Origin: Dactylorhiza incarnata
Taxonomy: Eukaryota > Streptophyta > Magnoliopsida > Asparagales > Orchidaceae
DNA length: 64,000 bases
Direction: 5' to 3'
Assembly: GCA_033032865.1 (NCBI GenBank)
Contig: JAWHQI010000019.1
Span: forward strand, 9,652,001 to 9,716,000
The translations under genes were made by a program, and so were the position numbers. Of this stretch, positions 6,004 to 34,270 are shown piece after piece (the first letter of the stretch is position 1; each line of letters starts with the position of its first letter). The notes below the pieces were generated by a model. The model searched no databases and had not been told where the DNA came from. It saw only the letters and a list, made by a program, of their open reading frames with translations.

Positions 6004-6045
6004 TATATTAATCACCTTCAACTGATATTCAATTGCACTTTCAAT

Positions 6046-9835: not shown

Positions 9836-10038
9836 CTAGCGCCGGCGGTAGCACCTAGCGCTTGGCGCTAGCGATGATTAGTGCAATTCTGGTAGCATTT
9901 TTAGAAAGCGCTAGCACCAGGCGGTAGCGAATAGCGCATGCAGTAGCGCGGAGCACAAGAGGCAAGGCGGTGGAGTTTCCCTGGAATGAAGATACGCACG
10001 CAGAGAATATTCCCTAATATGGGATAGCGCTAGCGCTC
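9836..10038 (+). repeat. GCGCTAGCGC word cluster of A
   Basis: Palindromic CpG words built on GCGCTAGC and GGCGGTAGCG recur about ten times before the TATA-like box. The 3' LTR copy is at 16440-16650. A short copy of the word also lies inside the element near 13626-13640. Confidence 0.7.
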
Positions 10039-10043
10039 ACTCC

Positions 10044-10050
10044 TATTAAA
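10044..10050 (+). promoter_or_regulatory. TATA-like box of A 5' LTR
   Basis: TATTAAA lies just downstream of the word cluster. The corresponding sequence in the 3' LTR (TAAAAAG) is changed. Confidence 0.4.
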
Positions 10051-10315
10051 GGAGGCCTCTTCTGTCATTTTTTAATACACAAGTTTGAGAGAGGTGAAGT
10101 GCTAGAATTCCAGACCCTTGCCGAAAAGTGATCTCACACAAAAGTTCCACAAATTTTTGAAGGAGGATTTCTTCACGCCGGATCCGACCGAAGATCGCTT
10201 CATCAATGCTTATACTACAACGGTCTTTCGTCGCCAACTTCAGAAGTTCTTCAAGAGGGAGATTTTCATATTATTGTCTTTCCATTTCATATCTTTTTCT
10301 GTAATCGTTTAGTGA

Positions 10316-10500
10316 ACTTGCCTCGTGTTGGCGACTAGGTCTGGGTAGGACTTAGGGTAGAAACTTGCCTCGTGTTGGCGATTAGATCTAGGTTAGCTCT
10401 AGGGGGTGCTCGAGGCCATATCTGGGGAAGGATTGGCTAGAGCGGCTTGAGGCCATATCCAGGCAAGGATAGGCTAGGGCCACTGGTTCATGGGGATGTG
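10316..10500 (+). repeat. GCCTCGTGTTGGCGA units in A LTR
   Basis: Two units (near 10320 and 10366) pair TTGCC with GGCGA around TCGTGTT. They are followed by a pair of longer GAGGCCATATC-type repeats. The 3' LTR copy has TCGCC/GGCGA pairing. This is the position occupied by hairpin arrays in the other LTRs. Confidence 0.5.
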
Positions 10501-10747
10501 AGTCAGGATAGAAAGCAAAAAGAGTTTATTATTATTCGCCACCGATTTCTGGCGTTATAGAAATCAATTTTTTGTTAACCCATATTTCGTATTAATAAAA
10601 CATGTCTCTACTTTATTTCACTTAGGTTGTTTGATTTCTCACCATCTTAATCTCTTATTATTTCAAGATATTCAAAATATAAGAAAAAGTTTTAAAACCC
10701 TTATTCACCCCCCCCCCCCCTCTAAAGGCGCCTACAGATCCAACAAG

Positions 10748-10758
10748 TGGTATCAGAG
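10748..10758 (+). other. Primer binding site of A
   Basis: TGGTATCAGAG lies 2 bp after the 5' LTR end and is complementary to initiator methionine tRNA. Confidence 0.9.
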
Positions 10759-10794
10759 AGAGGTTATTCCAAAACGTTCTAACAATTGGGAATA

Positions 10795-11604
10795 ATGGCG
10801 CCTCATGATCTAGCTTCAACTAGTGCGAGGAATTTTTATGAAGAAGAAAATTCACAAGCACCACATTTATTTAAAGGGACAAATTGTAGAGGATGGAAAA
10901 TTTTAATAGAAAATTTAATTAAAACTTTAGATATCGAGGCATGGAATTTAACAATTATAAGACCAGCGGATGAATCAATTAAAAAAGAACGTCATCTAAA
11001 TGCAAAAGCCAAACACTATTTATTTTGTGGTCTATCAAATGAAGTTTTCAAATTAATATATTGTTTTTCTAGTGCATACAAAATATGGAAATTTCTTACA
11101 GAAATGTATGATCTTCCTCTCGCAGGTATGGAAAAAACACAGGTGGAGAAGGAGATACATGCATCCACCATTATTCAAGAAGATCTCTCTCGTAGCAAAA
11201 GCATGGAAATCATGGAAATTGACTTAGACGAAGAGAGCAATTCATCAAGAGAAGATGAAAATTCATCTATAAAAGTGGAAGGCCTAGAAGACAAAAAAAC
11301 TTTGAGTTCAAATCTTGCCTCTTTAGATAGCACTGCAAGCAAAACTAGTTCCTCTTTTTTCATTACAAATTTGGTTTTCTCATTTCACATGCTTCAAAAA
11401 GCTAAACGAAAAATCAAAAAGTTAAAAGAGGCAAACTCAAAATTACGCATGAAAAATAAATATTTAAATGCTAAAATTATTGATTTGCAAAATTCTGATC
11501 TAAATTCTTCTCATTGTTTTAATTGCAATGATATTAAAGAAAAATTCAAGGAGCTTGAAAATGAACATATTTTGTACAAGAGCATAATGAAAAATTGTCT
11601 TTAG
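10795..11604 (+). CDS. Gag-like protein of A, N-terminal part
   Basis: The frame is open from 10786; I prefer the ATG at 10795 because the homologous gene of B starts at the same point (M-x-x-HDLA). Residues about 25-110 have the copia gag (DUF4219/UBN2-type) pattern: LFKGTNCRGWKILIENLI, a FCGLSNEVFKLI helix and AYKIWKFLTEMY. Residues 115-185 are acidic and Ser-rich. Residues 195-235 are a Lys/Leu-rich coiled coil. The frame stops at 11604 while recognisable sequence continues in another phase at 11667, so the natural protein was longer and a frameshift lies near 11575. No complete zinc knuckle is visible. The role is probably particle assembly. Confidence 0.75.
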   Translation: MAPHDLASTSARNFYEEENSQAPHLFKGTNCRGWKILIENLIKTLDIEAWNLTIIRPADESIKKERHLNAKAKHYLFCGLSNEVFKLIYCFSSAYKIWKFLTEMYDLPLAGMEKTQVEKEIHASTIIQEDLSRSKSMEIMEIDLDEESNSSREDENSSIKVEGLEDKKTLSSNLASLDSTASKTSSSFFITNLVFSFHMLQKAKRKIKKLKEANSKLRMKNKYLNAKIIDLQNSDLNSSHCFNCNDIKEKFKELENEHILYKSIMKNCL

Positions 11605-12255
11605 AAAATTCAACTTTGAAAAGTGATTGTGCTAAATACTAAAGTTATAAAATTGAAATCAAGGAGATGGATGAAACATTTAAGGAATTTAGAAATAACT
11701 ATCAAACTCATATTGACTTAATTGTTTCCACTCTTAAAAATAGCACAATTGCTTATAATAAAGCAAGACATAATCTCAAAGTTAAGAATTATGATTTGGA
11801 AACTAAAATCAACTCACTAAAGGAAATCATAAAGGAAAACTGTCAAAACATACATTCACAATATCAAGCTAAATTCAAAAATAAGTTAAATATAAATTTC
11901 CAAAAAATTTCTAATCATAACAAAGGAAATAAAAAAACAACAAAAACATGTAAAAGAATTTCCAAAAGATTATTATTTACAAAATCATGTTTCTCCCAAC
12001 TTGAAATTAGAATTACACAAATTTCCTATAAACAATACTTTCAATTGTCATTACAAGCATAATATTCAAAATAAAGATAATCATAATGGAAATTTGATGC
12101 ATACGAGCAACATTAAACCAAGGTTTGAATGGAGACCCAAAATTAAAAATGAAACATTAACTTCACATGAAAGGACCCATTCATCACTATCTACCCACAA
12201 TCCAACACGTTATATTTGGGTACACAAAGGAACCACCGCACTTGGTCCCCTTTGA
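11605..12255 (+). pseudogene. Frameshifted gag C-terminal half of A
   Basis: The frame at 11667-12062 continues the coiled-coil-rich protein (ETFKEFRNNYQTHIDLI onward). The frame at 12001-12255 carries a tail ending WVHKGTTALGPL, similar to the gag-pol junction region of SIRE-like elements. Stops and phase changes separate the parts. B has a parallel, more decayed copy up to about 60780. Nothing resembling protease or integrase follows. Confidence 0.6.
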
Positions 12256-13915
12256 ATACCTAAATCTCTTATTTATTAGGTATCACCAAATGCATGAAGT
12301 AGAATATTTTCTAAAAGAAATATACAAATTTCTACTTCATAATATGCTTTAATGCCCTTTAATTTTTCTTTTGCATTTTCTTATTTTTAAGCTATCATGT
12401 TATGGTCATCTTATATATTATTAGAAATATGATTTTATCTCTTAAAACTTAATGAGTTTATAAATCAAATTGATCAAAATTAAAAACCATATTTTATTTT
12501 GATGACCTATCTATCTCTCTTATATTCATTGCCTATATATATCATATAGTATTCATACAAATTGAACTATAAATTTGCTATAAGATATGTTAATTAAATC
12601 AAGTTATTAGGCTATTAAGAACCTTAGCCTTCATCAACAAAATTAGAGAAATAACATGATCTAAAAGAAAGTTTAAAATCTAAAAGAAAGTTCAATGTTC
12701 AATATGTTTTTTTAAACAAAAATTATAGTGTGTTCACTCCTTGATGTCAAACAAGAACTAAACCATCACTATTGTTCACCTATCAGAAATCACATATATA
12801 TTCAAAATTCTTAATTAAAGAGAAAAACACTAAAATGTATTGAAAGATTTTACCATCATAATGAATATTGAATACACATGCACCACCATGATCTATTGAT
12901 GACCTTTGCTAAAATTCTCTAAAATCATATATCATAAGTCATATCAAAAGTCTTCTAAAAACAACTATTTCTATCACAGTTATATGAATAATATGATGAC
13001 AATTGATATTATAATTGCATACCATGGTTGGTGTATTATGTGTGTATTGTGATTTATTTCAAGTTAAGACCTTAAAATCATCTTGATATCAATAAGTCCA
13101 AATCAAATAGAATCTTCACTTCATTCTAAGTCTATAAATTGAAACATTATCATACCATGGCATAACATTAATCTCAAACTTTTCATACTAACATTGTCAC
13201 CTAAAGAATATTAGTATCTATGTTAGGTTTTATATGTTTACCAAGATATACAAGCTGGGTATTCTTTTCTAGGGCATATCCAGTTATTCTTTGCATAAAT
13301 ATTTTCACATTAAAATCATTTAAATTATGCTTATTTGGATTATTCGAACATGATATCATGTGTCTTCATTTCCTATCTTTTTCAAGTTATACTATTTTGA
13401 TAAACACAAGCCTTTAGAAAACTCAAAATGAAGGTATAATAAAATATATCTCATGCAATGTTTATTTGGTAAATTCATATACAAAATCGCTAATCTTTCA
13501 TTCAATTTGCACTATCTAGACATCTCCAAAAATTCTGAAATTTCTGCATGAAACTACTCTTGGGACACTTAATCAAGATCAAAAATTGGAATTTTCAAAC
13601 TCTTAAATAATAGTGTACTGTTTACCGCGCTAGCTCGCCTATGTGATTTTATGTAATTATAAAATTCTAAAAAATCACTAAAAATATATTATTTTATATG
13701 TACAACTCAGTTTTGCATGTATGCCATAAATTGATTTTTGAAAAATTAAAAAAAAAACTACAAAAGCCAAAAATTGCAAAAATATTTTATTCTCTTCGAT
13801 TCTTTGTTTATTTGTTTGATTTCTATTTCTATATGCAAAAATCAAATACAAAAATATAAAACAAAGAATTATCAAAAAATATTTGAACTTAACTTTTCTA
13901 TTTACATGTATCTTG
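12256..13915 (+). other. AT-rich interior of A, no gene
   Basis: I see no coding signal here; stops are dense in all frames. Stretches align by eye to B at about 60780-62090. A single GCGCTAGC word occurs near 13626-13640. This replaces the pol region of an autonomous element. Confidence 0.6.
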
Positions 13916-14002
13916 CGAAAGAGAGATTTGGGCTATCATCCCATCACATCTCCTAGTACTGGGCGAACCTCTCACAGGGTAGACCTCGGGAAGTCCAAGA
14001 TC
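13916..14002 (+). ncRNA. Conserved structured motif 1, copy in A
   Basis: This about 87-nt motif also occurs in C (24605), D (28155) and L (48640). Here P1 is GAGAT/ATCTC (13923-13927 with 13948-13952), P2 is TGGG/CCCA, and P3 is CGA/TCG enclosing CCT/AGG. The tail GGGAAGTCCAAGA is nearly invariant. The stems differ from the other copies but still pair. It is probably an RNA signal acting in cis; whether it is an independent transcript is unknown. Confidence 0.6.
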
Positions 14003-14516
14003 AAATTATAAGAGTTCAAACTTTAAATCAAAATTATTTTTCAAAAATATCACAAATATTGTATGGACTTTATTGTGAAACTCAAGCATGATTTAATCCA
14101 ACATTTAGACCTTCTACAATGTTTAATTCATTCCTTTAAACTACTTTGAACATTGTTTTTATCATGCTTTGATATATCTACTCGTTTGTGCATCAAATTG
14201 TATTGTAAAAGTTGTGTAGAACTAAGCGTAACATGCTTCTAACTATGAGTAAATGCTTTATGGTTGATAATGATACTAATTCACTCACTTATTTTGGCAA
14301 AGTCTACATGTGCTTTTAATCTAAGAATGCTTTCTTGTGTATTGTAATTGTACAATGAATTAAATTTGCACAAGTATCTTACCTACACCACCTTTTTTTG
14401 CACTCTTAATATTTAAGAAAAGTGGTTGTCCTTTCAAATTACATTGGTTTGCAAAACAAGTGTATTTGGAGAACTTTGTACAAAAAATAATCATGAAATA
14501 AATTGACAAAGATAGC

Positions 14517-14745
14517 TCAACCAAGCACTACTTGAACCTCATGATAAGTCTTAATAAGCGTTCTAAGGTTGAGCACCTTAGAAAGACTAGTAAAGTGTCT
14601 TGTGCAAACCATCATTTTTACACCACTTATTCTTAAGTACACTGGATCATAAAAAATATATGTTGAAAAATAAAGTGTGTGATCCCCTAAGCACTACTTT
14701 GCACCCTGATAAGTCTTAATGAGCATTGTGTGTGCAAAGCACCAT
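14517..14745 (+). repeat. Motif 3, two copies of an AAGCACTAC..GATAAGTCTTAA block
   Basis: Two diverged copies (14523-14600 and 14693-14745) share AAGCACTACTT and TGATAAGTCTTAAT. The first continues into CTAAGGT..ACCTTAG, a 7-bp stem over TGAGC. B has one copy at 63357-63475. Its function is unknown. Confidence 0.55.
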
Positions 14746-15494
14746 GGTAGTTGTACATTTTTTCTATGTGCAATGATGTGTGTGAGAGTAAAATTATTTG
14801 TGTTTTATTGTGCACTTTTCTCTACATATGTCTTATATTTTTGATTAAATCATTTGTTTACTCTATTCAAAATACACTTATGTGCATCTTCCATAACACT
14901 TCTTCTCATGAGTATTGGATCCTACTGCTAAGTTCCATACTACTCTTTATATATATAAATGCACTAGATAACCTAGCATGCTCTCTACAATGTTTTGTAT
15001 GTTTTGAATTTGTGAATTAATATAACGTTTTAGTAATCTCTTTTTGAAAACATTATTTCATGCTTGGTTACTTTATTTTCAAACTTAAAGATCTTAAATG
15101 CAAATTGATTTACAAAAACATCTTCATTTTGGACTTTCACTCATATCTCTTCTTATGAATCATCATATCTTGCAAAAGAGATGTTTCTTGTATTTTAATA
15201 AGTCTTCCGCATCAACACCATGTATTTTTTACCTTGCGCTTTCATGCTTATATCAAAGTCTTAAATCTCAAAATTCCTTTTTTTTCAACAAATGGTAAAC
15301 TTGCTTGGTAGAATTTATATTGGTTGTTCTGACACGAATATCACTTTTCTGTTAAAAAATCGGATTCATTAATAGATTTCAAAATAGCTTTGAGAGTTTA
15401 AAGAAAATCAAATACAAATATAAACCCTTAGGCTATGAACTTATCATTAGATTCAAATGCTTAATGTTTCCAATGATTATTATCCCATAATTTC

Positions 15495-15745
15495 ACATCT
15501 CACCATAGCGAGGGCGTAGGGTTGTAGACATTAGATAACCTGACCTCTAAGTCAGGACTTATCCTTAACCGGGGAGGGTTCCAGTAGGGCCTTGCGAGGC
15601 ACTGGGGGGAAAGAGTGCTAGGTTGAGTATTTTCTAGTGTTTGCATATGGGACTAACACCCCAACCTACAACATGTATGCAGCTCCTCATGACCATCAAT
15701 CACAGAGTATGGGGCTAGGGTGTGGACATATTGTCTGGGTAGATT
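15495..15745 (+). other. Motif 2, about 250-bp conserved block in A
   Basis: The block is much more like B 62095-62330 than its flanks are. Its centre is a hairpin: CCAGT (15581) pairs with ACTGG (15605), and inside it GCCT-TGCG-AGGC. B changes the loop to TGTG and keeps all pairs. There is no ORF. The block stands after motif 3 in A but before motif 3 in B. Confidence 0.65.
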
Positions 15746-16265
15746 GGTTACTTGGAAATCATTACCTTTTTATACTTAAAACTCGTATATAAATGGGGAG
15801 AACTAACATGATAATATTGTTTACATGGCAAATGTTATATTGTTCATCTTTATGCTAAAAACTCTGATCTATTTCTATGAAAATATTTATGCTAACAACT
15901 CTGATTTATAAAAATTGTTTTTATGCTTAAAACTACTTATCATTTCATTTCCTCTAAAAAGCTCGATCATTCCTTATCTTATTATCAAAAATCCTTTTTA
16001 TGTCTCTTGCTTCCTTTCCCACTTTTGCTAATAACAAAAGGGGGAGAACCAATCATGATAAATATTCACCGCTATCAAAATTGAAAACTAACATGATTAA
16101 TTAAATTTATAGTTTACATATTAGGCGAGCATGTATTTAGGGGGAGCAATTCTAAATACTAAAATCAATAATTATCCTAAGTCATCACTCTCACACATAC
16201 ACAAGTAGGTTTCATCATGCTTATATATAAATGCTCTGATTTATCATTAATGGATTTGTTATTAT

Positions 16266-16279
16266 CAAAAGGGAGAGTT
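16266..16279 (+). other. Polypurine tract of A
   Basis: The purine-rich run AAAAGGGAGAGTT directly precedes the TGTTGG start of the 3' LTR. Confidence 0.7.
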
Positions 16280-17357
16280 TGTTGGAACATGGTCTTCCTC
16301 TACTCCTAGGGTTGAGAATAACAAATCCTACGTGTATTTGATCTTGTGTGCTTAAGTATGCAGGAAATAAGTCCATATGACTCAAGGATAAAATTAGAAG
16401 GTAGCCCCCAAAATTGAGAAAAAAATTCCAACAAGCCCACTAGCGTCGGCGATAGCACCTAGCGCCCGACGCTAGCGATGATTATCGCAATTTCGGTAGC
16501 ATTTTTAGAAAGCGATAGCGCCAGGTGGTGGCGGATAGCATAGGCGATAGCGCGGAGCACAAGAGGCAAGGCGATGGAGTTTCCCTGGAATGAAGATATG
16601 CATGCAGAAAATATTCCCTAATATGGGATATCGCCGGCGGTAGCGCTAGCGCTCACTCCTAAAAAGGAGGCCTCTTCTCTCATTTTTTAATACACAAGTT
16701 TAAGATAGGTGAAGTGCTTGAATTCCAGACCCTTACTCTGCCGAAAAGTGATCTCACACCAAAGTTCGACGAATTTCTGAAGGAAGATTTCTTCACGCCT
16801 GATCCAACCGAAGATCGCTTCATCAATGCTTATACTACAGCGGTCTTTCATCACCAACTTCAGAAGTTTTTCAAGAGGGAGATTTTCATATTATTGTCTT
16901 TCCATTTCATATCTTTTTCTATAATCATTTAGTGCACTCGCCTCGGGTTGGCGATTAGGTCTGGGTAGGACTTAGGGCAGAAACTCGCCTCGTGTTGGCG
17001 ACTACATCTAGGTTAGGTCTACGAGGTGCTCGTGGCCATATCCGGGGAAGGATTGGCTAGAGCGGCTTGAGGCCGTATCCAGGGAAGGATAGTCTAGGGC
17101 CACCGGTTCGTGGGGATGCGAGTCTGGATAGAAAACAAAAAGAGTTTATTATTATTCGCCACCGATTTCTAGCATTATAGAATTCAATTTTTGGTAAACC
17201 CATAATTCATGTTAACAAAACATGTCTCTACTTTATTTCACTTAGGTTGTTTGATTTCTCACCATCTTGATCTCTTATTATTTTAAGATATTCAAAATAT
17301 AAGAAAAAGTTTTAAGACCCTTATTCACCCCCTCTAAGGGCGCCTACCGATCCAACA
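16280..17357 (+). repeat. 3' LTR of A
   Basis: This is the second copy of 9676-10745, with the same ends, word cluster and hairpin region. It has a shorter C tract and scattered substitutions, so the insertion is not very recent. Confidence 0.93.
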
Positions 17358-20823: not shown

Positions 20824-21647
20824 TCTAACATCCCCCAAAAAACTAGACTCCTAGAGTGGTTTTGTCATCACTAGGTCATGACAAAACCCTAGGAAGCTTG
20901 AAGAGACCACTTGGCCTTAGCCAGGAAGAAGGAAACCATAGTGGTCTGCCAATAGCAATTTCCAGTTAACAGGCATAGGGTTGGACTTAAGGGCCTCACC
21001 TTGACCCTTTGACCCCACCATAGCATACCTAACCCTTTAAGGGTCCCCTTAGAGCACCAAGGACCCATTGGGGTCAACCAAATAGGCCAAATTGACCAAA
21101 GTCAACCCTAACCCCAAGTTGGTCAAAGTAGCCTAATTAGGGTCAATTGACCTCCACCATGCCAAATTGACCCTACCTAGACCTTGCTAACCCTTAGAGG
21201 AGTCCAATGAGTCACTAGCCACCCATTGGGGCCAACCCAAATGGTCAAATTGACCAAAGTCAACTCCCCCCTAAATTTAGGTCAAAATGACCTATTTTGA
21301 CCTAATCAAGCCCAATCTACTTGGGCTAGGACCAATTGGAGTAGACCATTTGTCTAGGAGGCTGAAAATTATTCAAAGAGCCATCCAATTTCTGTAAATG
21401 ATGATTAGGAGAGAGAAAGCCCATTTTCCCCAAAAATGGTGGAGAGAGAAAGAGAGGAATAATGGCCATTCATGGCTTGGGAGGCCAAAGGCTTCCTCTC
21501 TTCATCTCCCATGGTTTGGTACTCCTCCCCTCAGTAATTTGGAGAAGTTTAACAGCCTTGGCCAGCCACATAGGTGGATGTATTCATGAAATTTCAGTTG
21601 GCCGAAATTGGACATTAATGGCATTCATGATAATTAGGAGTTGCACC

Positions 21648-21658
21648 CTCCCCCCCCC

Positions 21659-21689
<31 letters not shown>

Positions 21690-21690
21690 A
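21648..21690 (+). repeat. Poly-C followed by (CA)n
   Basis: A run of more than 20 C is followed by a short CA repeat. The length is unreliable in any assembly. Confidence 0.8.
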
Positions 21691-22214
21691 ATTGAACCTT
21701 ATAACTCCTTCAGAGGACTTGGAGGATCAGTTTACCCACCTTCCCCAAAGAAATCGAGCACCAGAAGCTAGGATTGACATGGCGTCGAAAGCTCCACCTC
21801 CGGCCATGGTGACTCGCCGGAATTCGCGCCACCAAACCCCCATACAGGTCTGATCCGCCTCCTCTCCCTTAGTGCTAGATCTTATCATAATTTGGGGCTT
21901 GTTCCGAGCTCAATTGGGCTCGGATAGTGCTTCCAAAAGGGCTCGTTTTGAGATCTCTTTCCCCTCCTCTACACCCATATTCCGACCACCTCCGGCCGGC
22001 CAACAACCCCCTATCGCCGGCCACCACCTCAACGGAGGCAGTGGTGGCATTGGCTGGCCGGGAAGAGGCACAGGTGGCCAGGAAATCATCCCGCAAAGAA
22101 GCCCAGGATGGGCTGTCATGCGCCATCCATCCAACAGGGACGATGACTATGAGCCATTGGATCTGCCGGGATAAGCTATTCGCAGATTTATATGATTATG
22201 TTATATCATTATTT

Positions 22215-22728
22215 CATTAATTCATCGATCTGAGTAGAAGAAATTCGTCGAGCTGTAGCCTGAGTTCGTTGAACTAATAGTTGAGTTCATCGAACTAAAT
22301 CTGGAGCTCATCGAACGGAATTCATCCATCGAGCACACTCTGGAGTTCGTGAACTAATAGTTGAGTTCGTCGAACAGAACCCGGAGTTCGTCGAACTGAA
22401 TTAATTCACCGAACTGATAGTTGAGTTCGTCGAACTGAACCTGGAGTTCATCGAACGGAATTAATTTACTGAACTGAATTAATTTGTCGAACTGAATTAA
22501 TTCATCGAACTGAATCTAGAGTTCATCGAACTGAGGGATAACCTGCTGAACTGGTTGGAGAACTGATTTCGCCGAACTGAATCACACCGTTCGTCGAACG
22601 CAGAATTGATTTCGTCGAACGCACGCAGATAGATTTCGTCGAACTGAAGCATGGCGTTCATCGAACGCAGAACAGATTTCGTCGAATGCAGATTGGAAGT
22701 TCGTCGAACGCAGAGACTTGTTCCAACA
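22215..22728 (-). mobile_element. Fragment of a TTCGACGAA-type copia LTR inside C
   Basis: Read on the minus strand it begins TGTTGGAACA at 22728, the LTR start of the N1 type, and runs at once into more than 20 copies of GTTCGACGAA-type words. Several neighbouring copies are exactly 21 bp apart. It ends near 22215 without TATA box, C tract or LTR end, so it is truncated. Confidence 0.6.
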
Positions 22729-24604
22729 CATTTTGTCATACTTCCTCCAGTAATTCTTTTTAATTATTAAAAATACTAGGCCCCTCAAATGAAAAAGTGC
22801 CCAACATGAATGTTGTAGCCCTTGGTGTCTAGATTAAGTGAAAATTTGTTTCAGCCCAATAGGGGCACTATAGCTCCCTATGGAGTTATTTTTCTAGGAC
22901 TGGTCCCTAGGGTAGGGCAGTCACAAATTCTTGAATATCTTTCTATTGGTAAATGTTATGGCCTTGAAATTTAAAACCTAGGCTATTTACACCTACCCAC
23001 ACATCATTACCAAAGATGTGAATTTTAGAGGAACCTTTTTCTAAGGTTTTTGTAATAATTTCATAAATCAAATATTAATTAATTATTGGGTCAAATGACC
23101 TCCAATGCACTCCAAATTTTGGTGGGTACTTCTTAGTGTTATCACATGACCCTGGTAAAAATCTCAGCCCAATTGGGACTTATTTGATTGGGTAATTTGT
23201 CAACCCAAGTTAGGTCAAATTAGGTCAAAGTTAGGGCATGGTGTTTATCTTGGGGTATGGTGGCCAGAACTCATCACCAGGAGATGAAACCTTGGCCACT
23301 GGTTAGGATCACCTAAAACGCCTTCATGAGTAAGATGGGGTGGTGTAGAGATGGATATGGCCTAGGATCCAAGTTTTACCCCTTGGGGTGCATATAAAAC
23401 CTTGTGAAGGACATGTGGTCAAAAACCCTAGAATGGCCATGGAATTTAGGGTATATGTTCATGGGGTGTGATTATACTCTAGGGAATTTTGAGAGAAATT
23501 TGGGACTACTTATTTCCCCTAAATTAGGTCATAAACCCTTTAGGGAAATTTCTTATAAGAGAAATTTACATAATCAAATGACCTTGGATGGTGATGAAAT
23601 CGTGGTTGTATTTTTATAATCATATGATGGACCTCTGGTAATTTTTGTGTAATTAATTAGGTGATTTAACCAGCACTTCATTCACAAGGCACTTATTTTA
23701 CCTTAATTTCAAGAGATATAATTGAGGCTCCAAAACTCTCTGGAAAAATGTGCAACTTGGTAATAGGAAATTTCAGAGCACTAGGAATCCCTGTAAATTT
23801 TTGTATAATTTTTGGAGGTTGTTATCAGTAGGCTACTTCACAACATGCTCATATTAGGATTTCTTTGAAATATTTATTTAAGTGGTTAATATGCCTTTGC
23901 AAATTCTAAAATTTGGTCTGAAAACTTTTCTGATCAATGTAAATGTCTGGTAATATTTCCATAATTTTTGGACAAATATTGTTGGTGATTGCTTCTTTAA
24001 TTTCTAATTTTGGTTAAATTGTCAATATTATAATTAGAGGACAATTCATGATTGTAAAATTATGACACACTGTACTTACTGTTATTTTGGCATGATAGAT
24101 TTATCCTAATTTTATGAGAGTCATATTATAAGAATCCCTTACACTTCATGTTCATATTCATACTTGGCAAATATTGGAGAAATTTAAATAAATGCTAATA
24201 TGTTGAGGAAAATTATGAATCTCTGGAGTTAGTCTTATAATGCCATGATATCCCTCCAGTAATAAAATTGTGTCATAAGGATGAATATTTGGAGTACTTC
24301 TACTTATTAGCTTCATATAGTTAGTTTGGTCTGCGTATAGTAAAAATGTGAAACTTGGATATTAGGGGCCTACCGAGTGGAAGTGGCATGTAGTTGGTGT
24401 ATATGGTCAGGTTGAAGAGATTGAAGGTCACCAAAAGGAGTTTAGGAGATGAGGCTGTGCTTGGTGAGTTAAGGGTAAAGTTGTGCTCGGGATTGACGAA
24501 AGATCGTCTTTCTCTTAGCCTGTCATAAAATGCTTAGGGGTAATTCAAGAGAAATGACAAGAAGGGTATTCTTACAGGTATCTACCAATAACATTAAGTA
24601 CCTT

Positions 24605-24692
24605 GGAAAGGGAGCTTTGGGGTGTCATCCCAGTATAGCTCCTAGTACCGTAGCGAGCCCCTAACAGGGTAATCCTCGGGAAGTCCAAGATT
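24605..24692 (+). ncRNA. Conserved structured motif 1, copy in C
   Basis: P1 is GGAGCT/AGCTCC (24611-24616 with 24637-24642). P2 is TGGG/CCCA. P3 is CGAG/CTCG (24654 and 24675), enclosing CCCT/AGGG. The invariant tail GGGAAGTCCAAGA follows. All four helices are perfect here, so this is the best copy for modelling. Confidence 0.65.
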
Positions 24693-24779
24693 AACCATAA
24701 ATTGTAGGGTTAAGTTGTAAACAAGATTAATTTAGTAATATCCTCACCCACACTCCGTTGTTACGGGTATATATTCAGT

Positions 24780-26097
24780 TTGGTCTTACGAGCGATAGTG
24801 GTGGTTGTAGCAGTAGACTAATTAGTCTGGTGAGCTTGTGACTCAGTAATGTTTATTGGTGCGGACGGGTTGGTCCGGCGAGCCGTTGGCTCGGAAGGTT
24901 ATGATGAAGGGGAGGTTGGCCCGGGGAATTTATGGCTTGGGATATAGTAGAACATGTTTGCATGTGCATGAAGGTGGTGGGTTTTCGGTATTGGACGGTC
25001 ATTCACACCGACGTCGATACATTGACTCGACAAGTGTGGAATTTGCACTTAGCCATAAAAGTCTGGTGGTCCAGCCAATAAGAGTACGCAGATGCTCCGC
25101 AGTTTTGCGTTGAGGCATACGATAGGTCTAGGTTAGGTAGTGTGAATACCAACCTTGAGGTGGGCGAGGCCTAACCCACCGCTTCCATTTGACACTGCGG
25201 GAGTATCCTGGGAGTCTCGCTAGCTCCAAAAAGGGGGAACTAAAGGTCTGTGCGCATAGAGTCAAAGTGTGTGAGTTGCACTTGTATGAACATATCATAA
25301 ACTACATAACTCTGCATCATGGCATAAACATTGCATTTCAACCCCTACCCCTATCGTATAAATTGGTTATGAGACTCTCTATACGATAGGCCTTGCTAAA
25401 TGACCCCTTGGTCTATAGATTTGTATGAGCATTCCTATAAATCAATGGTTACTTTTCTATTATATACATGTCTTTACTTACTACACCTTACTTGTTCTTT
25501 ACCCTGTTTTACTTACTGCTTCAATTATCTATATACATATGTGTAATTGTAGAAACATTCCCTGTAGATTATGCCCCTATCACCTACTATTGTTTATACC
25601 CCTTGATGTACTCCGCTTCATCCTTCACGCACAGTGCCTAGGAGTCACCGGGGGAGGGGTGGGGGATTGGCTTAGTCTTTTGACTAACGGTCGGTGGACC
25701 TTATCATTTTAGGGGACCGAGGAGATGCTGCAGCACCAGAGGCCGATGCAGATGGAGACGGGGCAGTCTAGCACAGGAGCACAAGTTTCAGGATCAGTGA
25801 GTGATTAGTAGTTAGCTTCTGCGAGTGATCTTGTTGTGAGGATATGATGTACAAGGCATGAGCCCTTTATTATTGTAACTTTGTTATTTCAGTTATACCA
25901 TGTGGACATTTATATATATATAGCATGTGATTTGTGGACTTGAACTTCTATTATTTGTTTATACTTTTCTTCTTCTGTGATCGATATTGCCGACAGGATC
26001 GGCGCTTTGTAGTGGCGACCTTCTCGTGTGTTGGTGTCACCGCAAAGCGGCGGTTCTGGGCATAAGACCCGGGTTTTTGAAAAAAAGGGGTCTTACA
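24780..26097. other. GC-richer 3' part of C, no gene
   Basis: The part holds the inverted pair CCCTATCGTATA/TATACGATAGG near 25350-25390 and a GC-rich terminus (25980-26097) with GCCGACAGGATCGGC. No coding domain is recognisable. Confidence 0.4.
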
Positions 26098-26593
26098 ATA
26101 GTGTCACTATAATTTTCTCAGGATTTTTGGAAGTCATGATGTAGTACTTGTTGTGTAAAGTTATGTTTTCAACCCTTTCATATTAAATAGAAAATATGAT
26201 CATATAGTCCTTGGAAAATCATGAAATTCTGGAATTAGTATTTTTATGTCATTATAGTGCCACTATAATTTTCTCAGAACTTTGGGAAGTCAAAATCTAG
26301 TACTTGATGTGTAAAGTCATCTTGTAACCCTTTTTATGATAAATAGAAATTACGATTATAAATATGCTGGAAAATTATGATATTTTGGAAACCATATCAT
26401 TATGTCATAAGTCACCTGATGAGTACTTTTTGTACTCATCTTTTAGTATAATTTTAATATAGTTTTAATATGAATTTATATAAATTATATGTATTATCTT
26501 ATCGAATTCATTTCTTTTTATTTCTTTAACTAATGTAAGCTTGTTTTATCTTTTTCAGGTTTCCTGGGCACTTTTGAGAAAAATTCCAAAGTA

Positions 26594-27045
26594 CACGCCC
26601 ATGGTCACGGGCGTGACCATGGGGCGTGACAGCCTAGATGTGTTCCAGACCCGATTCCGCCACACCGGGGTCATTCCGTGAAGATTCGCCAAGTACACGC
26701 CCCAGTTCACGGGCGTGACCAAGGGCGTGACCCAGTGTCACGGCCACGACTCGCCACAGCATCTAGAGCACGCCTGCCACGTCATTTAAAGTTACACGCC
26801 CCAGGTCACTGGCGTGACCTAGGGCGTGGCATCAGGTCACGGGCGTGACTCGCCCCGCGCTTCTTCCCGCCAGAGTTTCCCGCCAGCAGCACTATTTCAA
26901 GATTACACGCCCCAGGTCACGGGCGTGACCTAGGGCGTGACACGGCCGAAACGCTCGCAATTACTCCAGAAGGCGCCCTCTCCGCTACTGCTTCGATCAC
27001 GCCCCTTACACGCCCTTGGTCACGGGCGTGACTAAGGGCGTGTAA
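26594..27045 (+). repeat. Five regularly spaced long hairpins in U3 of D 5' LTR
   Basis: Copies start near 26594, 26694, 26794, 26905 and 27007, about 100 bp apart. Each is CACGCCC..GTCAC-GGGC-GTGAC..GGGCGTG. The last (27006-27045) forms an 18-bp stem with one G-T pair. The middle of the arm varies between copies (ATGG, AGG, TTGG) and the other arm follows (CCAT, CCT, CTAA). The second LTR has the same five at 31153-31607. Confidence 0.85.
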
Positions 27046-27060
27046 CCTTATTTTTTCAGC

Positions 27061-27067
27061 TATATAA
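27061..27067 (+). promoter_or_regulatory. TATA box of D 5' LTR
   Basis: TATATAAAG lies about 15 bp after the last hairpin. The second LTR has the same sequence near 31624. Confidence 0.7.
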
Positions 27068-28019
27068 AGCCAGCTCCAGCAGATGTTAAAAACCAATTTT
27101 TAGGACTTAGACCTTTCATTTCATGTCGTTATTTTCATATTTTAGTTGTTCTTGTACTCCTTTTCTTCTTGCAATTGGTACGTTCAATTAATATAGTTTG
27201 TAATTTTCAATTCCTAGTTTGTAATTTTTCTTTAGCAATTTAATAAAATAGTTCTTTTCTTCTCTCATTTTCTCCCTCTTTTATCATATGCCCTTTTATT
27301 TATTTTGATTCTTCAATCTCCATGAGTAACTAAAATATTATCAGTACTCGATCGAGATGATCCAAGGAATGATATAAGTCATGAAATAATCTATAGCTGC
27401 TATTTCTCTTTTCGAAAATGCTTAAAATTTGCCCTTGATTTTAAGATAACGAGATTATATTTTCGATATATAATTCTTGTTCTTGTTTTCGTTCTTTAGT
27501 TAGCCGAGAGGCTCGTAAGACGAATCGATCACTCAAGGATAAAAAGAGTAGAATGCAATCCTCGAGAGAGGACGACGATACCCTTCCGGATTGGGGTAAA
27601 AGCCAATAGCGGGATTCACTTTGATAAGGCGAGTTTTAGGGGTTTCGATTCTAGAACGAGAGTTCGATTGATCAACCTAAACTCAGTTGAGCGCATCCTC
27701 GAGAGAGGTGCGTTCATAATTCGGGAATCTCCACGGTCAAAGCTATTTTATTAAGATAATGCGCTTTTATTCTTTGTTCTTATTTTTATCTCCAAGGTGA
27801 TTCAAGATCGAGTGCTAATCGTTCTTTTAATTCTTATTTTTTTCCATCTGCAAAACCCACCTCAAATTTTAATTGATAAAATAATAGAGATTTTCTTGAA
27901 GTAAGAGTACTCAACCGCCCCGAGTCTAATACCACCTTGGTTTTTATAACCTATACTACATTCGATATGGTACACTTGCCGTTGTCGTTTGCAAGCATAG
28001 TTTTGCCCCATCATGTTTT

Positions 28020-28037
28020 TGGCGCTGTTGCCGAGGA
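28020..28037 (+). other. Athila-type primer binding site of D
   Basis: TGGCGCTGTTGCCGAGGA closely matches the TGGCGCCGTTGCCGGGGA found after Athila-lineage LTRs, with two C/G to T/A changes. Confidence 0.8.
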
Positions 28038-28154
28038 CACGGTTGATATTTCGAAAAAAGAAATATTAATTAATTTTATCGTTCTCTTTCTTCTCTCTCT
28101 TCTCTTTATTTTTTTTTTATATAAAAAAAATCTTAAAAAGCGCAATCTAAATTC

Positions 28155-28242
28155 TCGGAAAGGACGCTTTGGGCTTGAATTCCCATCATAGCCTCTAGTA
28201 CCTTGCAAACCCTTCACCAGGTAGATCTTGGGAAGTCCGGGA
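28155..28242 (+). ncRNA. Conserved structured motif 1, copy in D
   Basis: It lies about 120 bp after the primer site, in the leader. P1 is GGACGCT/AGCCTCT with one mismatch and one G-T pair. P2 is TGGG/CCCA. P3 is CAA/TTG, where C has CGAG/CTCG. The tail is GGGAAGTCCGGGA. The position is that of a packaging or dimerisation signal, which is inference. Confidence 0.6.
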
Positions 28243-28340
28243 CTAATTTAACCCGCTTTTTGAAAAAAAATTTATAATAAAAAAATTTATAAAATTCCAT
28301 TCATTTAGGTAAAGGTTGTTTCCTTTTTATTTTTTTTAAT

Positions 28341-29734
28341 ATGAAAGAATCTGAATTGGCCATTAAGGTTGCTGAGCTTCGAAACCAACTTTATCTCTTA
28401 CGAGCCGCACGAGAACGCCAATTTAGTTGTCATTTTTGTGGTGCGCCTCTCAAAGTGAGGAATGTTATTTACATTCTTATTATAAAAATAATTATTATGA
28501 AAATAATTTTCCTCAATATTATGCAAATAATTTTGATAATAATTACGATCATGATTTTTCATCTTTTAATGAAAATAATTTTTCAAACTTTGATGAAAAC
28601 AATTTTTCTAATTTTAATGAGAATAATTTTTCGGCATTTAATAATTGTTCTTCTAGCTCCGAAGTTGATTATTCCTCGTGGCAAGCTCACCCAGATAGTT
28701 CCCGGAGCAACAAAGATAAATCTATAGATCCGAATTTTTGTTTTTCTTCTTGTACGCCGCAATTTTCGTTCTCTAATTTTGGGGAATTTCCGCCAATTCA
28801 TATAGATACTACCCCCCAAAATTTAGAGGAAAATATTTTTTCTAATTTTTAGGAGAATAATTTTTCGGCTTCTAATAATTTTTCTTCTAGCCCCGAAGTA
28901 GATTATTCTTGGTGGCAAGGTCACCCGGATAGCTTTCGGAGCGATGAAGATAAATCTTTAAACCCGAATTCTTGTTCCTCTTCTTTTGCGCCGCAACATT
29001 CGCACTCTGATTTTGGGGAATGTCCGCCGATTCAATTAGATACTTCTCCCCAAAATTAAGAGGAAAAATTTATTTCTTCTAGTATTTTTTCTCCATCCTT
29101 GGATAATTTAGTTATGGAGGAACATGTGGTTTCATGTAATCCCATAACTTCTTTTACCAAAGATGAAGAAAAATTACTTTTCCAAGAATTTCTTAAAATT
29201 ATGGGCACCCCGGATGAAATAGAAGAAGAACAAGTTTCTTCCCCTACTCCAACCGGATTTCATTTTCCTTGTCATGAATATTCGCGAATTTCGTCTATCC
29301 AACCAAAAATTCATGGAAATTTAGTGTCCGAAAATTTAATTCCGCTTGATAATACGCTAGATTTTTCTAAGGAAATAATTATTATAGAAAAGGAATAACC
29401 AAAGCTTAATTTAATAATTTTGCAAGCGCCTCCTCCTTGCGAAAATTTTTCTGAATCGTTTATTTGTGATTCTTTAGATACTAATATTTTTCAGGTAGAA
29501 GATGAGTCGTTGCTACCCCAATTAATTGATGATCCATATGTCGCTCATCTTTATAAATCCAAATCACCTCAGGTATGTATAGGTGATTTAGATTTGCAAA
29601 TTCAAGATCAAAGACAAACGAAGAATCACATGTTAAGCAGAGGAGAGGCTGGCCGACTGACGCTGGCACATTCACCTACGCGTGAATTAGGGGAGTTGCT
29701 TGTTCACTTCTCTTTTAAATTTCCTTTTTCCTAA
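28341..29734 (+). pseudogene. Unknown Asn/Phe-rich protein gene of D, broken
   Basis: It begins at 28341 with a short helical part and CHFCGAPL, then shifts phase. The frame from 28427 continues to 29734 in one phase with three in-frame stops (near 28850, 29057 and 29396). It encodes Asn-Asn-Phe runs (NENNFSNFDENNFSNF). Two tandem modules of about 70 residues follow, each with a EVDYSxWQxHPDS core and a PPIxxDTxPQN end. The acidic C-terminal part ends in a frame overlapping the Athila-typical TTGGGAGGC region. It takes the place of gag, but no gag domain is recognisable. Confidence 0.5.
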
Positions 29735-30978
29735 CACTAACCGTCTAGCTTAAAGACGTGAAAAAGAAAGCGCTCTTGGGAGGCACCCCTTGCTTATCTT
29801 TAATTTTCATGCATTTTTCTTTTAAAAGTTTATTTTTCAAGTGTTCTTCATACTTAGTTTTAAACATTAGGGACAATGTTTAATTTTAAGTATGGGGGTG
29901 TAGCTTAGAATTCCCTGTATTTTTAATTGATAAAGAAAAAAAAATTAGATTTATTAATAATAATAAATATGCCTAGCCTTGTTGTTTTTATTGTTCTAGA
30001 AATTTAGTTTGAGGTTTGATTATAAGTATTCTTTCATTTTTAATTTAGCTAATATTTTGTTCAATCAAAATTTGTTAAATTTAAATTTAAAGTAATTTGG
30101 TTTTAAGAAACATTTTATTTTCTTAATTCGATTAGAGAATTAATTTAGCACTACTTCTCCGTTTAATTTTAAATAGCTTCACTTTGTGGTAAATTGGCTA
30201 AACATCTCTAGATTTCTATTATATTCTCTTTTAACTTTAAGATCTTAGGAAATTTCATTCCAATAAAAAGTTGCTCTCAAAATAGTTTAATTTATAAACT
30301 AGAAGTATTTCGTTACCCTTGGTAAACATATGTATTTTTTCTTTTTCCCCTATTGTTAGATCATATGTCATGGGAATAAGGAGATGTTAATTCTTTATTC
30401 TCTGGTAAACATATGCAACCCAAAAATAAAAATGAAGAGAGAAAAAAATGTTTATATGTCGTGGAAATGATAGGATAATAGTCTATCATTCTCTGGTATT
30501 ACATATACTTAAAAAGGGGGGGGGGGGGGGGGGGGGTTGAGAGGATAAAATTCATCACCCCAATCAAAAACCTCTTCATATCCTTTGTCATCATTTTGCC
30601 ATTTCGTTCAAACCCATCCCCAGCCAATTTCATTGTTTCTAGTTCTAAACTAAATTATTAAGAGAGCAGTAATTTGGTATGTGTCTTTTCCTTAAGATTC
30701 TTTTATATTAGAGTGTCTATAATTTCAATCTAATTTTGTTTGAAAATTTCTATAATTTCGATTGCTAAATAGTTATCTTGAGAAGTAGTTAGCTAAACAA
30801 ATTTCTCTTTTTAAATTATCAACATGACTTATGACTTAATTCTTGAATTCCTAAAATTTGTTTTTGACTTATTCTTGGTTTAATAAAATTTTAGTCAATT
30901 AGAAATAATATCGATGTCTTGTAATTCGTTCCTCACTTTTTTGCTCTGGAACAGCAAAAACTCAAGTATGGGGGTGTT
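29735..30978 (+). other. 3' untranslated interior of D with polypurine-like tracts
   Basis: It contains AAAGCGCTCTTGGGAGGCACC near 29768, a first AAGTATGGGGGTGT at about 29889 and a second at 30965-30978 directly before the LTR. Tandem blocks around 30300-30500 repeat GGTAAACATATG and CTCTGGTA motifs. The rest is AT-rich with no ORF. Confidence 0.65.
30517..30537 (+). repeat. Poly-G tract
   Basis: A run of about 20 G; its exact length is unreliable. Confidence 0.8.
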
Positions 30979-32489
30979 TGATGAGTACTTTTTGTACTCA
31001 TCTCTTAGTATAATTTTAATATAGTTTTAATATGAATTTATATAAATTATATGTATTATCTTATTGAACTCATTTCTTTTTAATTCTTTAACTAATGTAA
31101 GCTTGTTTTATGTTTTTCAGGTTTCCTGGGCACTTTTGAGAAAAATTCCAAAGTACACGCCCATGGTCACGGGCGTGACCATGGGGCGTGACAACCTAGA
31201 TGTGTTCCAGACCTGATTCCGCCACACCGGGGTCATTCCGTGAAGATTCGCCAAGTACACGCCCCAGGTCACGGGCGTGACCAAGGGCATGACCAAGTGT
31301 CACGGCCACGACTCGCCACAGCATCCAGAGCACGTTTGCCACATCATTTAAAGTTACACGCCCCAGGTCACGGGCATGACCTAGGGCGTGACATCAGGTC
31401 ACGGGCGTGACTCGCCCCGCGCTTCTTAGCGCCAGAGTTTCCCGCCAGCAGCACTATTTCAAGATTACACGCTCCAGGTCACGGGCATGACCTCGGGCGT
31501 GACACGGCCGAAACGCTCGCAATTACTCCAGAAGGCGCCCTCTCCGCTGCTGCTTCGATCACGCCCTTAAACGCCCTTGGTCACGGGCGTGACCAAGGGC
31601 GTGTAACCTCATTTTTTCAGCTATATAAAGCCAGCTCCAGCAGATGTTAAAAAACCAATTTTTAGGACTTAGACCTTTCATTTCATGTCGTTATTTTCAT
31701 ATTTTAGTTGTTCTTGTACTCCTTTTCTTCTTGCAATTGGTACGCTCAATTAAAATAGTTTGTAATTTTCAATTCCTAGTTTGTAATTTTTCTTTAGCAA
31801 TTTAATAAAATATTCTTTTCTTCTCTCATTTTCTCCCTCTTTTATCATATGCCCTTTTATTTATTTTGATTCCTCAATCTCCATGAGTAACTAAAATATT
31901 ATTAGTACGCGATCGAGATGATCCAAGGAATGATATAAGTCATGAAATAATCTATAGCTGCTATTTTTATTTTCGAAAATGCTTAAGATTTGCCCTTGAT
32001 TTTAAGATAACGAGATTATATTTTCGATATATAATTCTTGTTCTTGTTTTCGTTCTTTAGTTAGCCGAGAGGCTCGTAAGACGAATCGATCACTCAAGGA
32101 TAAAAAGAGTAGAATGCAATCCTCGAGAGAGGACGACGTTACCCTTCCGGATTGGGGTAAAAGCCAATAGCGGGATTCACTTCGATAAGGCGAGTTTTAG
32201 GGGTTTCGATTCTGGAAGGAGAGTTCGATTGATCAACCTAATCTCATTTGAGCGCATCCTCGAGAGAGGTGCGTTCATAATTCGGGAATCTCCACGGTCA
32301 AAGCTATTTTATTAAGAGAATGCGCTTTTATTCTTTGTTCTTATTTTTATCTCCAAGGTGATTCAAGATCGAGTGCTAATCGTTCTTTTAATTCTTATTT
32401 TTTTTCCATTTGCAAAACCCACCTCAAGTTTTAATTGATAAAATAATAGAGATTTTCTTGAAGTAAGAGTACTCAACTGCCCCGAGTCC
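30979..32489 (+). repeat. 3' LTR of D, truncated
   Basis: This copy of 26417-27927 has all five hairpins and the TATA box. It breaks off after CCCCGAGTC; the last part of the LTR is missing and copia pol of E starts at once. Confidence 0.85.
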
Positions 32490-34270
32490 TGACTGTCCAA
32501 GACAAGCCCAGCAGCAGCAACACACAGACAGCTGATGCAATTCCTGAAGAAGAAGAGGTACAAGATGAAGTCACAGCTGAACCAATGGAACAAACACAGC
32601 CACCAGAGGACCCTCTTCCTGCTGCTGCAAGGCACCTGAGAGATCATCCAAGAGAGCTAATAATTGGGGATCATACCCAAGGCATATTGACAAGAAGCAA
32701 AGCTCATAATGAAGCACTATTCTTGAGCTTCCTCTCTCAAATGGAGCCCAAGAAGTTTAAAGAGGCCAATCAAGACACATTCTGGATTGAAGCAATGCAA
32801 GAAGAACTCCTACAATTCAAGAGATGCAAAGTATGGAAGCTGGTTCCACGACCTCAGGGACACAATGTGATTGGCACTAAATGGGTATACAGGAACAAGC
32901 TTGATGAGAATGGTACAATCATCAAGAATAAGGCCAGATTAGTAGCCAAAGGATACAGGCAAGAGGAAGGTATAGACTTTGATCAGTCCTTTGCACCAGT
33001 TGCAAGGTTGGAAGAAATTAGGCTATTCCTTGCCTATGCTGCCTACAAGGGGTTCAACGTCTACCAGATGGATGTCAAATCAGCATTTCTCAATGGAGAC
33101 TTGAAGGAAGAGGTATATGTTGAACAACCTCCAGGTTTTGTGCATCCAATCCTAACTTCTCATGTTTATCTTCTTAGGAAAGCACTATATGGTCTCAAGC
33201 AAGCTCCAAGAGCTTGGTATGAGACTTTGTCCAACTTTCTCCTCAAGAACAAGTTCATGAGGGGAAACATTGATAGCACATTATTTCTTAGGGAAACAAG
33301 GGGCAAGTGTCTCTTAGTCCAAATCTATGTTGATGACATAATCTTTGGGTCTACTGATGACAACCTATGCAAGAGATTTGCCAATCTAATGCAGGGGGAG
33401 TTTGAAATGAGCAGCATGGGTGAGCTAAAATATTTCCTTGGGCTCCAAGTGAAACAGTCTGATGATGGAATTTTCATCTCCCAGACCAAGTACACTAAGG
33501 AGCTCATCAAGAAATTTGGTATGGAATCAGCCTCCACCATGAGAACACCCATGGGGTCCAATGTATCATTAGACAAGGATGAAAAGGGAAAGGCCTTTGA
33601 TGAGTCCATGTACAGATGTATCATTTGATCCCTATTATACTTGACTGCTAGTAGGCCAGACATTATGTATGCTACATGTGTTTGTGCTAGGTATCAAGCC
33701 TGTCCAAAGGAATCTCACTACACCTCTGTGAAGAGGATATTGAGATACCTTAAGGCCAGCTTGCATCTTGGCCTTTGGTACCCTAAGAACAATGACTTTG
33801 AACTAACAGGCTTTTCAGATGCAGATTTTGCAGGTTGTATAGAAGACAGGAAGAGTACAAGTGGTACTTGTCAGTTCCTAGGGAGAAGATTGATATCTTG
33901 GAGCAGCAAGAAACAAACCAGTGTGGCAATATCCACAGCTGAGTCTGAGTACATTATTGCAGGTAGCTGTTGTGCACAACTCCTTTGGACACAGCATCAG
34001 TTAGAGGATTACAACCTCAAGGTAAGGGAATCTCCTTTGTATTGTGATTCATCCAGTGCAATATCTATTGCTAAAAATCCTGTCTCTCATAGCAGGACTA
34101 AGCATATAGTGATTAGATATCATTTTATTAGAGAACATGTAGAGTGTAAAGACATCTGTCTTGAATTTGTCCCCACTTACAAACAAGTAGCTGATATCTT
34201 TACAAAGCCACTGGATGAATCCAAATTCAATGCTTTCAAAATTGATCTTGGCATGCTTAGTGTAGAATAG
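32490..34270 (+). pseudogene. SIRE-like copia pol of E: RT and RNase H, 5' truncated, one stop
   Basis: The frame runs open from the junction at 32490 through an acidic integrase-RT linker to the RT domain: [67 protein letters not shown] and the catalytic YVDDIIFGS near 33330. An in-frame TGA at 33626-33628 replaces the conserved Gly before SLLYLTASRPDI, and a Cys replaces the preceding conserved Gly two residues earlier. RNase H then reads intact to 34270: FSDADFAGC, STAESEY, LYCDSSSA, RTKHI and ADIFTKPL. Gag, protease and integrase are missing upstream. Apart from the stop and truncation the protein is well kept. Confidence 0.92.

Follow-up and report, generated by a model that had tools for sequence, protein, structure and literature searches.

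A conserved, putatively structured RNA module with 5S rRNA-like letters in three LTR retrotransposon families of Dactylorhiza incarnata

Why would unrelated LTR retrotransposons carry the same short motif? The question is raised by a 64-kb stretch of Dactylorhiza incarnata DNA (contig JAWHQI010000019.1, positions 9,652,001 to 9,716,000), here called the window, in which an earlier note made from the letters alone had placed four copies, A, C, D and L. All four were recovered with R1, a covariance model built from these same copies with a structure chosen by RNAalifold. They lie on the plus strand at 13909-14004, 24599-24694, 28150-28246 and 48633-48728, and their scores of 97.4-105.5 bits, high by construction, compare with 11.6 bits for the best match elsewhere in the window, which confirms the four sites. 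The module is about 92-97 nt long.

13909-14004, plus strand: module copy A, in the internal region of a copia-type element
24600-24691, plus strand: module copy C
28150-28246, plus strand: module copy D, flanked by the PBS-like site and the gag-like ATG of a short LTR element
48633-48728, plus strand: module copy L, with one pair of the CC/GG stem changed to TA

The 3.27-Gb host genome was scanned with two sequence patterns. The first, CTCCTAGTAN{24,36}GGGAAGTCCAAGA, is anchored in stem P1, loop E and the 3' end, and generated 6,853 exact matches against 0 for its reversed control. The second, GAAAGGGNNNTTTGGGN{50,78}AAGA, takes its anchor from the 5' half of arm 1 and asks only for a loose AAGA at the 3' end; it generated 16,015 matches against 7. 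Given these controls the module is not a product of chance; it is an abundant repeat component of the host genome, with thousands of copies. Occurrence in viruses or prokaryotes was considered and rejected: the scans produced 3 and 7 loci in IMG/VR and 8 in prokaryotic genomes, R1 found nothing below E 0.6 in these 18, and they were taken as chance matches.

A sample of 73 copies was assembled, four from the window and the rest from pattern matches in contig order, which makes it a convenience sample. It was derived from 77 matches by removing L080, which repeats L012, two tandem paralogues, and L090, which scores 21.5 bits and lacks the second half of the module including the loop-E letters. 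Nine of the 30 second-pattern loci (L083, L085, L086, L088, L091 and L098-L101) were unused, as their places were already held from the first pattern. The alignment used for structure, A5, has 72 rows: it leaves out L036, which is like L035, and L107, which has an odd insertion, and it includes the L095 paralogue.

When the module was masked, the flanks of the 73 copies formed three single-linkage clusters comprising 31 giant-LTR type, 27 Athila-type and 15 copia-type copies. Outside the module the sequences of the three families could not be aligned with each other. The claim that the hosts are of three unrelated kinds is therefore upheld by flank clustering, and also by local anatomy.

9676-17357, plus strand: host of copy A, 7.7 kb, with LTRs at 9676-10745 and 16280-17357 (88.6% identical) and the TSD TTTTG
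20824-26097, plus strand: host of copy C, a solo LTR of ~5.27 kb with ATAGT on both sides (by eye) and an LTR start without TG
26417-32488, plus strand: host of copy D, with LTR-like repeats at 26417-27926 and 30979-32488 (96.8% identical)
28020-28037, plus strand: PBS-like site in the host of copy D, two changes from a tRNA-Asp-type pattern, 130 nt before the module
28341-28727, plus strand: gag-like open frame in the host of copy D, beginning ~95 nt after the module

The host of copy A has an initiator-Met-like PBS after its 5' LTR and degraded gag-like frames. Its gag frame gave no copia gag match in Pfam, and its copia label is taken from its relatives L019 and L027, the latter with an RVT_2 reverse transcriptase upstream of the module. 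The solo LTR around copy C sits inside a repeat array. For the host of copy D no TSD was found and the exact LTR end is not fixed. Neither the host of A nor that of D has a full pol frame. Among the Athila-type elements, L035 has an rve integrase upstream of the module, and L040 and L044 have a tRNA-Asp-type PBS upstream and gag-pol downstream. In the Athila-type loci L035 and L017, CATTGGGGACAATG followed by the PPT-like AAGTATGGGGGTG lies between pol or the PBS and the module.

We infer that the giant-LTR family is of the Ty3/chromovirus kind from its LTR ends and PBS, features indicative of that group, and from an RVT_1 frame beside L095 that may belong to it. L030 has an initiator-Met PBS-like sequence after its LTR end. 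The giant-LTR copy L031 has a 5S-gene-like stretch (AGTTAAGCGTGCTTGGGC...GGATGGGTGACCTCC) immediately after its LTR end, in the last 70 bases in module orientation; this stretch may be a pseudogene of 5S or a Cassandra-like piece. The flanks of copy L join the giant-LTR cluster, via intermediate copies only, and in a direct comparison copy L and the LTR of copy C have the motif alone in common. A separate fourth kind of host for copy L was not borne out.

The window holds other repeats as well. A direct repeat of 1.5 kb (4519-6043 and 7434-8926, 93% identity, ~2.9 kb apart) probably represents the two LTRs of a short element. A second LTR-like pair (51805-53031 and 57990-59224, 96.7% identity) encloses minus-strand gag-like frames, and R1 found no module within that element. 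An inverted repeat (32723-33295 and 39361-39933, 74% identity) has its left arm in a copia reverse-transcriptase frame, and therefore probably represents two copia elements in opposite directions. The top named relatives of the window's copia reverse-transcriptase frame, among the best 120 of 8000 matches, are Platanthera zijinensis proteins (71-79% identical). Diverged tandem arrays of TTCGACGAA-like units occur at 50353-50654, 44790-45153 and 22244-22612.

What the copies have in common was approached through secondary structure. Run on 33 copies, RNAalifold predicted a three-way junction that includes a closing stem; the covariation term was small, at only -0.03. The most likely model from these predictions is a junction of the closing stem P0, arm 1 (P1 plus P2) and arm 2, which would open with UAGUA facing GAAG. 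P0 is TCTTGG/CCAAGA, with the compensatory version TCTCGG/CCGGGA in copy D. In copy C the parts are as follows.

24601-24606 with 24685-24690, plus strand: closing stem P0, outermost pair mismatched in this copy
24611-24616 with 24637-24642, plus strand: stem P1
24618-24621 with 24629-24632, plus strand: stem P2
24643-24647 (TAGTA) facing 24680-24683 (GAAG), plus strand: loop-E letters
24648-24649 with 24678-24679, plus strand: CC/GG stem
24657-24660 with 24667-24670, plus strand: stem P4

Over the 72 rows, 94.4% of the 1,581 paired cells are standard pairs, and changes on both sides of a pair number 57 versus 14.9 in column shuffles. As the copies are related, columns were also simulated without structure along a FastTree tree (1000 runs). 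P1 is paired in 89.6% of cells versus 73.9 +/- 6.6 in the simulations, and both-side changes in P1 amount to 49 cells versus 7.5; 0/1000 runs reached either value, so the claim that P1 covaries across copies stands. P1 is judged here on anchored samples, since the first pattern fixes CTCC on its 3' strand and the second fixes GGG on its 5' strand. P0 is paired in 96.5% of cells, a value reached by 44/1000 simulations, which is weak support. Pairing in P2 (124/1000), P4 (87/1000) and CC/GG (219/1000) was not significant for any of these stems alone in the same simulations, and arm 2 is for this reason put forward as a proposal. For the structure as a whole, 0/1000 runs matched the pairing and 7/1000 the both-side changes. 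When no structure was assumed, column pair 29-54 ranked first of 4,962 (E 0.05) and was the sole single pair to stand out; none of the next five belongs to the structure.

The stem set in the earlier note was right for P1 and P2, and it overlooked the closing stem P0. Its third stem, P3 (CGAG/CTCG), was rejected, with 224/288 cells paired (77.8%) and one of its four pairs formed in only 31/72 rows.

Minimum-energy folds of the 72 rows contained P0 in 59, P2 in 46, P1 in 37, P4 in 25 and CC/GG in 18; the four main stems occurred together in 9/72. Of the window copies, C alone takes the drawn junction as its minimum-energy fold; A, D and L differ. Fold z-scores were 0.32 for A, -2.47 for C, -2.13 for D and -1.59 for L. 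Overall there are 72 G-U cells against 33 A-C cells. Because a single column pair contributes 31 of the 72, and P1 itself has 13 G-U against 15 A-C cells, wobble pairs do not settle the strand.

These figures bear on whether the conserved object is RNA at all. A DNA-level element, either a dyad protein binding site or an insulator, would also preserve an inverted repeat by the kind of covariation seen in P1, is in line with the near-equal numbers of G-U and A-C cells there, and would accommodate the poor folding of most single copies. It is at odds with the exclusive sense orientation described below, with the nested two-arm layout and closing stem, and with the presence of letters of an RNA loop-E motif, and we regard it as very unlikely. 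The reading that we favor is an RNA module.

Orientation was scored from coding matches. A match to a query protein lay within 1.5 kb of 22/73 copies; some of the query proteins came from loci within the set (L035, L044 and copy A). The match was to the copy's own lineage in 21/22, comprising 14 Athila integrase, 3 Athila gag and 4 copia gag or pol matches, and the module is in sense orientation in all 21. The remaining copy, L095, is also sense. Antisense matches were limited to two, both of a copia frame that lies past the Athila copy L018.

Position is far less uniform. Of the 14 Athila copies with an upstream integrase, 10 have 366-448 nt between the end of the first-listed match and the module, and L018 and L038 have 551-558 nt; in L012 and L028 the match covers the first 156 residues only. 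In other Athila-type copies (L040, L041, L017, L020 and D) a PBS-like site lies 153-544 nt upstream of the CTCCTAGTA box, for which copy D carries CTCTAGTA, and in L040/L044 and D the module is just ahead of gag. Copy C lies ~1.4 kb before the LTR end. The module is inside the LTR in the giant-LTR family only; the copia- and Athila-type elements, which have coding frames, carry it internally. The place of the module thus varies among elements, and its strand, where it can be told, is constant.

Two other cis functions have to be weighed against these positions. Retroviral packaging signals are located between the PBS and gag, and some Athila-type copies as well as D have the module between a PBS-like site and gag. 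As a packaging or dimerisation signal, the module would be recognised by Gag or by a partner RNA and would admit the transcript to the particle; short elements such as D would exploit the proteins of autonomous relatives, and the non-autonomous elements A and D do keep the module in the absence of a full pol frame. We felt that this is rather unlikely, in that three unrelated Gag lineages would need to read the same RNA, and in that the module lies behind pol in those ten integrase-bearing Athila copies and inside the LTR in the giant-LTR family. A role in the processing or stability of the element RNA, or in its translation (through enhancement or internal initiation), with no part in export, fits all of the structural evidence equally well, and also the place just ahead of gag in L040/L044 and D. 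Most Athila copies with coding evidence have the module behind pol, mostly with no long frame downstream in the 1.5 kb read, which argues against this group of functions, and we consider it unlikely.

Is the module kept, or was it simply carried along? Mean module identity is 83-87% within families and 74-79% between them, and the nearest relative belongs to the same family for 70/73 copies. In 490/545 within-family pairs the module is more alike than the flanks (350 nt on each side), and those flank identities are inflated, given that the aligner assigns unrelated flanks 73%. The pattern is consistent with an old module that each family has retained on its own. Tandem second copies are present at L095:1656-1749 and L096:1656-1749, both on the minus strand. 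They are GC-rich and divergent, lie ~60 nt upstream of the main copy and score 47.5 (L095) and 46.5 bits (L096) with R1; their loop-E letters are the same, and P1 is changed and apparently pairable (by eye).

A passive mobile module, that is, an old SINE-like insertion or template-switch copy with no present function, would explain the different places in different families, the tandem second copies in L095 and L096, and the failure of the families to align outside it. It would not readily explain the family-specific versions, the compensatory changes in P1 or conservation above that of the flanks, and neither a poly-A tail nor a TSD was seen around the four window copies (by eye only). We judge it improbable. 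The choice offered in the earlier note was between a cis-acting RNA and a transferred module. Of these a cis-acting RNA fits best, given the P1 pairing, the sense orientation in 21/21 and the 490/545 pairs; recent transfer is less likely because the nearest relative is so consistently in the same family, and old transfer is compatible with the data.

The most constant part of the module is not a stem. It is a set of unpaired letters, the same ones that make up loop E (bulged-G) in 5S rRNA. In the 19 rows obtained without that anchor, a count that leaves out L090 and L107, CTAGT is present in 19/19 and the next A in 17/19, and the facing G-A-A in 19, 17 and 19 of 19. The second-pattern listing also holds a subgroup with CTAATA and GGGAAT, with at least four listed rows. 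In CTAGTA...GAAGTCC the module has the letters of 5S loop E, and these loop-E letters also occur in the host genome's own 5S (L001). As RNA, the module would present AGUA opposite GAA, with the flanking U...G and C...G of that motif. These letters, and the partial 5S likeness they belong to, were omitted from the earlier reading of the module.

The likeness extends beyond loop E. The majority string of the module is collinear with the L001 5S over ATCCCATCA.A.CTCC, TAGTAC and GGGTAGACCTC..GGGAAGTCC, with a score of 51.4 versus 31.0 +/- 4.8 for shuffles (0/3000 reach it); this comparison was picked by eye after the sequence had been inspected, a choice that the statistics do not count. A strict local alignment was reached by 4/3000 shuffles, and a global alignment was not significant (84/3000). 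Genomic decoys reached the loose local score in 3/9,480 cases, and in 0/1,538 at G+C of at least 0.48. The best decoy scored 76, far above that score; the high-scoring decoys are perhaps truncated module copies, though any window containing CTAGTA, GAAGTCC or TTTGGG had been removed beforehand. Among individual rows, 38/72 lie above the 99th percentile of shuffled rows, and the L095 tandem paralogue aligns poorly (34.8). Single window copies set against a 5S sequence scored weakly: the shuffles scoring at least as high, of 2000, were 3 for A, 38 for C, 31 for D and 284 for L.

Membership in the 5S rRNA family was rejected, as neither model finds the other. None of the four window copies matched RF00001, even with E allowed up to 10, R1 gave no match in the 5S loci L001 and L002, and a second covariance model, R2, run unfiltered on eight 5S loci, gave nothing convincing. 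The five helices (I-V), loops A-E and 119-120 nt of 5S rRNA are not all present: a segment with the 3' strand of helix II and the 5' strand of helix V is absent. By its letters the module is 5S-like, and is not 5S. A Pol III promoter derived from 5S, of the sort known from Cassandra, Ajax and SINE3, would be consistent with the 3' part of the module, where GGGTAGACCTC..GGGAAGTCC resembles the 5S box C region. We hold it to be highly improbable: the alignment gap coincides exactly with the 25 nt of 5S in which box A and the intermediate element lie, RF00001 has no match in the four copies, and the module resides in coding elements, not TRIMs.

The explanation that we put forward brings these observations together. 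The module would be a conserved sense-strand RNA that three unrelated LTR retrotransposon families carry in the direction of transcription, and it would act in cis on the full-length element RNA. Its partner would be a host RNA-binding protein of the 5S-binding type, with RPL5 as first candidate and TFIIIA as second. The bound protein would steer unspliced element RNA, in the simplest case by taking it out of the nucleus, and for the most part irrespective of where in the transcript the module lies. Binding of a host protein is suggested because unrelated elements keep a sense RNA element at different places and share 5S loop-E letters in it; the elements may use a common host protein for RNA handling. 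RPL5 is placed first on account of the RNAs that it binds, namely 5S rRNA, a viroid loop E and the mimic of 5S in TFIIIA pre-mRNA (PMC6164485). Export is proposed as the role because all three lineages need to export unspliced RNA. Transcription of the module, its protein partner and its role in export are inferred, as is the folding of loop E and of arm 2 as drawn. Taken as a whole, a sense-strand three-way-junction module that acts in cis through a host 5S-type protein to steer unspliced RNA is an explanation we hold tentatively, at somewhat less than even chances.

If true, the explanation would matter for plant elements. A 2025 review states that nuclear export of plant LTR element RNA has not been studied directly (PMC12786077). 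A reporter experiment with a module of <100 nt could address both unspliced-RNA export in plants and shared host factors. One structured RNA kept alike by copia-type, Athila-type and giant-LTR lineages would be out of the ordinary; as a new RNA family, the module would also help in annotating plant repeats. Searches of the open-licence literature, judged mostly by titles and the beginnings of abstracts, brought up no paper on such a module. In its main text, a 2025 survey of plant structured RNAs has six mentions of P5SM and none of 'transpos' or 'loop E' (PMC12218528).

How does the module compare with known systems? No Rfam 15 family reached its gathering score in the 64-kb window, and the weak matches in the four copies are to unrelated families and include no hammerhead. 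The statements that the motif belongs to no known RNA family and has no hammerhead core thus hold, the former for Rfam 15. With 5S rRNA (RF00001; L001) the module shares the loop-E letters TAGTAC ... GGGAAGTCC together with ATCCCATCA.A.CTCC and GGGTAGACCTC in the same order, and possibly the layout of a closing stem with two arms. It differs in being ~25 nt shorter, in having neither helix II nor helix V, and in placing CCCA in the P2 stem instead of loop C.

Cassandra, Helenus and Ajax (TRIMp3) are likewise LTR elements with a small-RNA-like stretch; they are short, and their LTR holds a Pol III promoter (PMC10886601), whereas the module occurs in large elements and has no box A region, that stretch being a 25-nt gap in the alignment. 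The module is in the LTR in the giant-LTR family only, and ARAGORN with the bacterial code identified no tRNA in the 64-kb window. Potato spindle tuber viroid offers a parallel, in that RPL5 binds the loop E of this parasitic plant RNA; it is a rod-like circular RNA, and the likeness is one of description (PMC6164485).

P5SM, in plant TFIIIA pre-mRNA, is a 5S-like RNA inside another transcript that is read by RPL5; it resides in a host gene and controls splicing, and it is set apart from the module by description and not by sequence (PMC4538838, PMC6164485). As the module copies lie in LTR elements, identity with the P5SM exon of TFIIIA was rejected. R1 found no module in the TFIIIA loci L110-L112, and R2 found nothing convincing in L110 and L113. 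The likely TFIIIA gene is L113 (host genome C2673:11015500-11021500), where simple alignment revealed no 5S-mimic exon in the stretch between the first two zinc-finger exons.

RNA transport elements of the retroviral type (CTE) are the remaining comparison. The module would resemble them as a conserved, putatively structured cis element in sense orientation, judging from P1 covariation and the 21/21 sense copies. The mouse elements IAP and musD carry such cis export elements, RTE and MTE, which are structured, flexible in place within LTR-element RNA, and serve the export of unspliced RNA; they are animal elements read through NXF1, and the module, with its putative function, is likened to them by description, no shared sequence or fold being known (PMC12786077). 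That the module is a compact 5S mimic which captures RPL5 or TFIIIA for export, and so would be a plant counterpart of the animal retroviral transport elements, common to copia- and Ty3-type elements as a result of convergence or ancient exchange, is a more specific version of our explanation, and a doubtful one.
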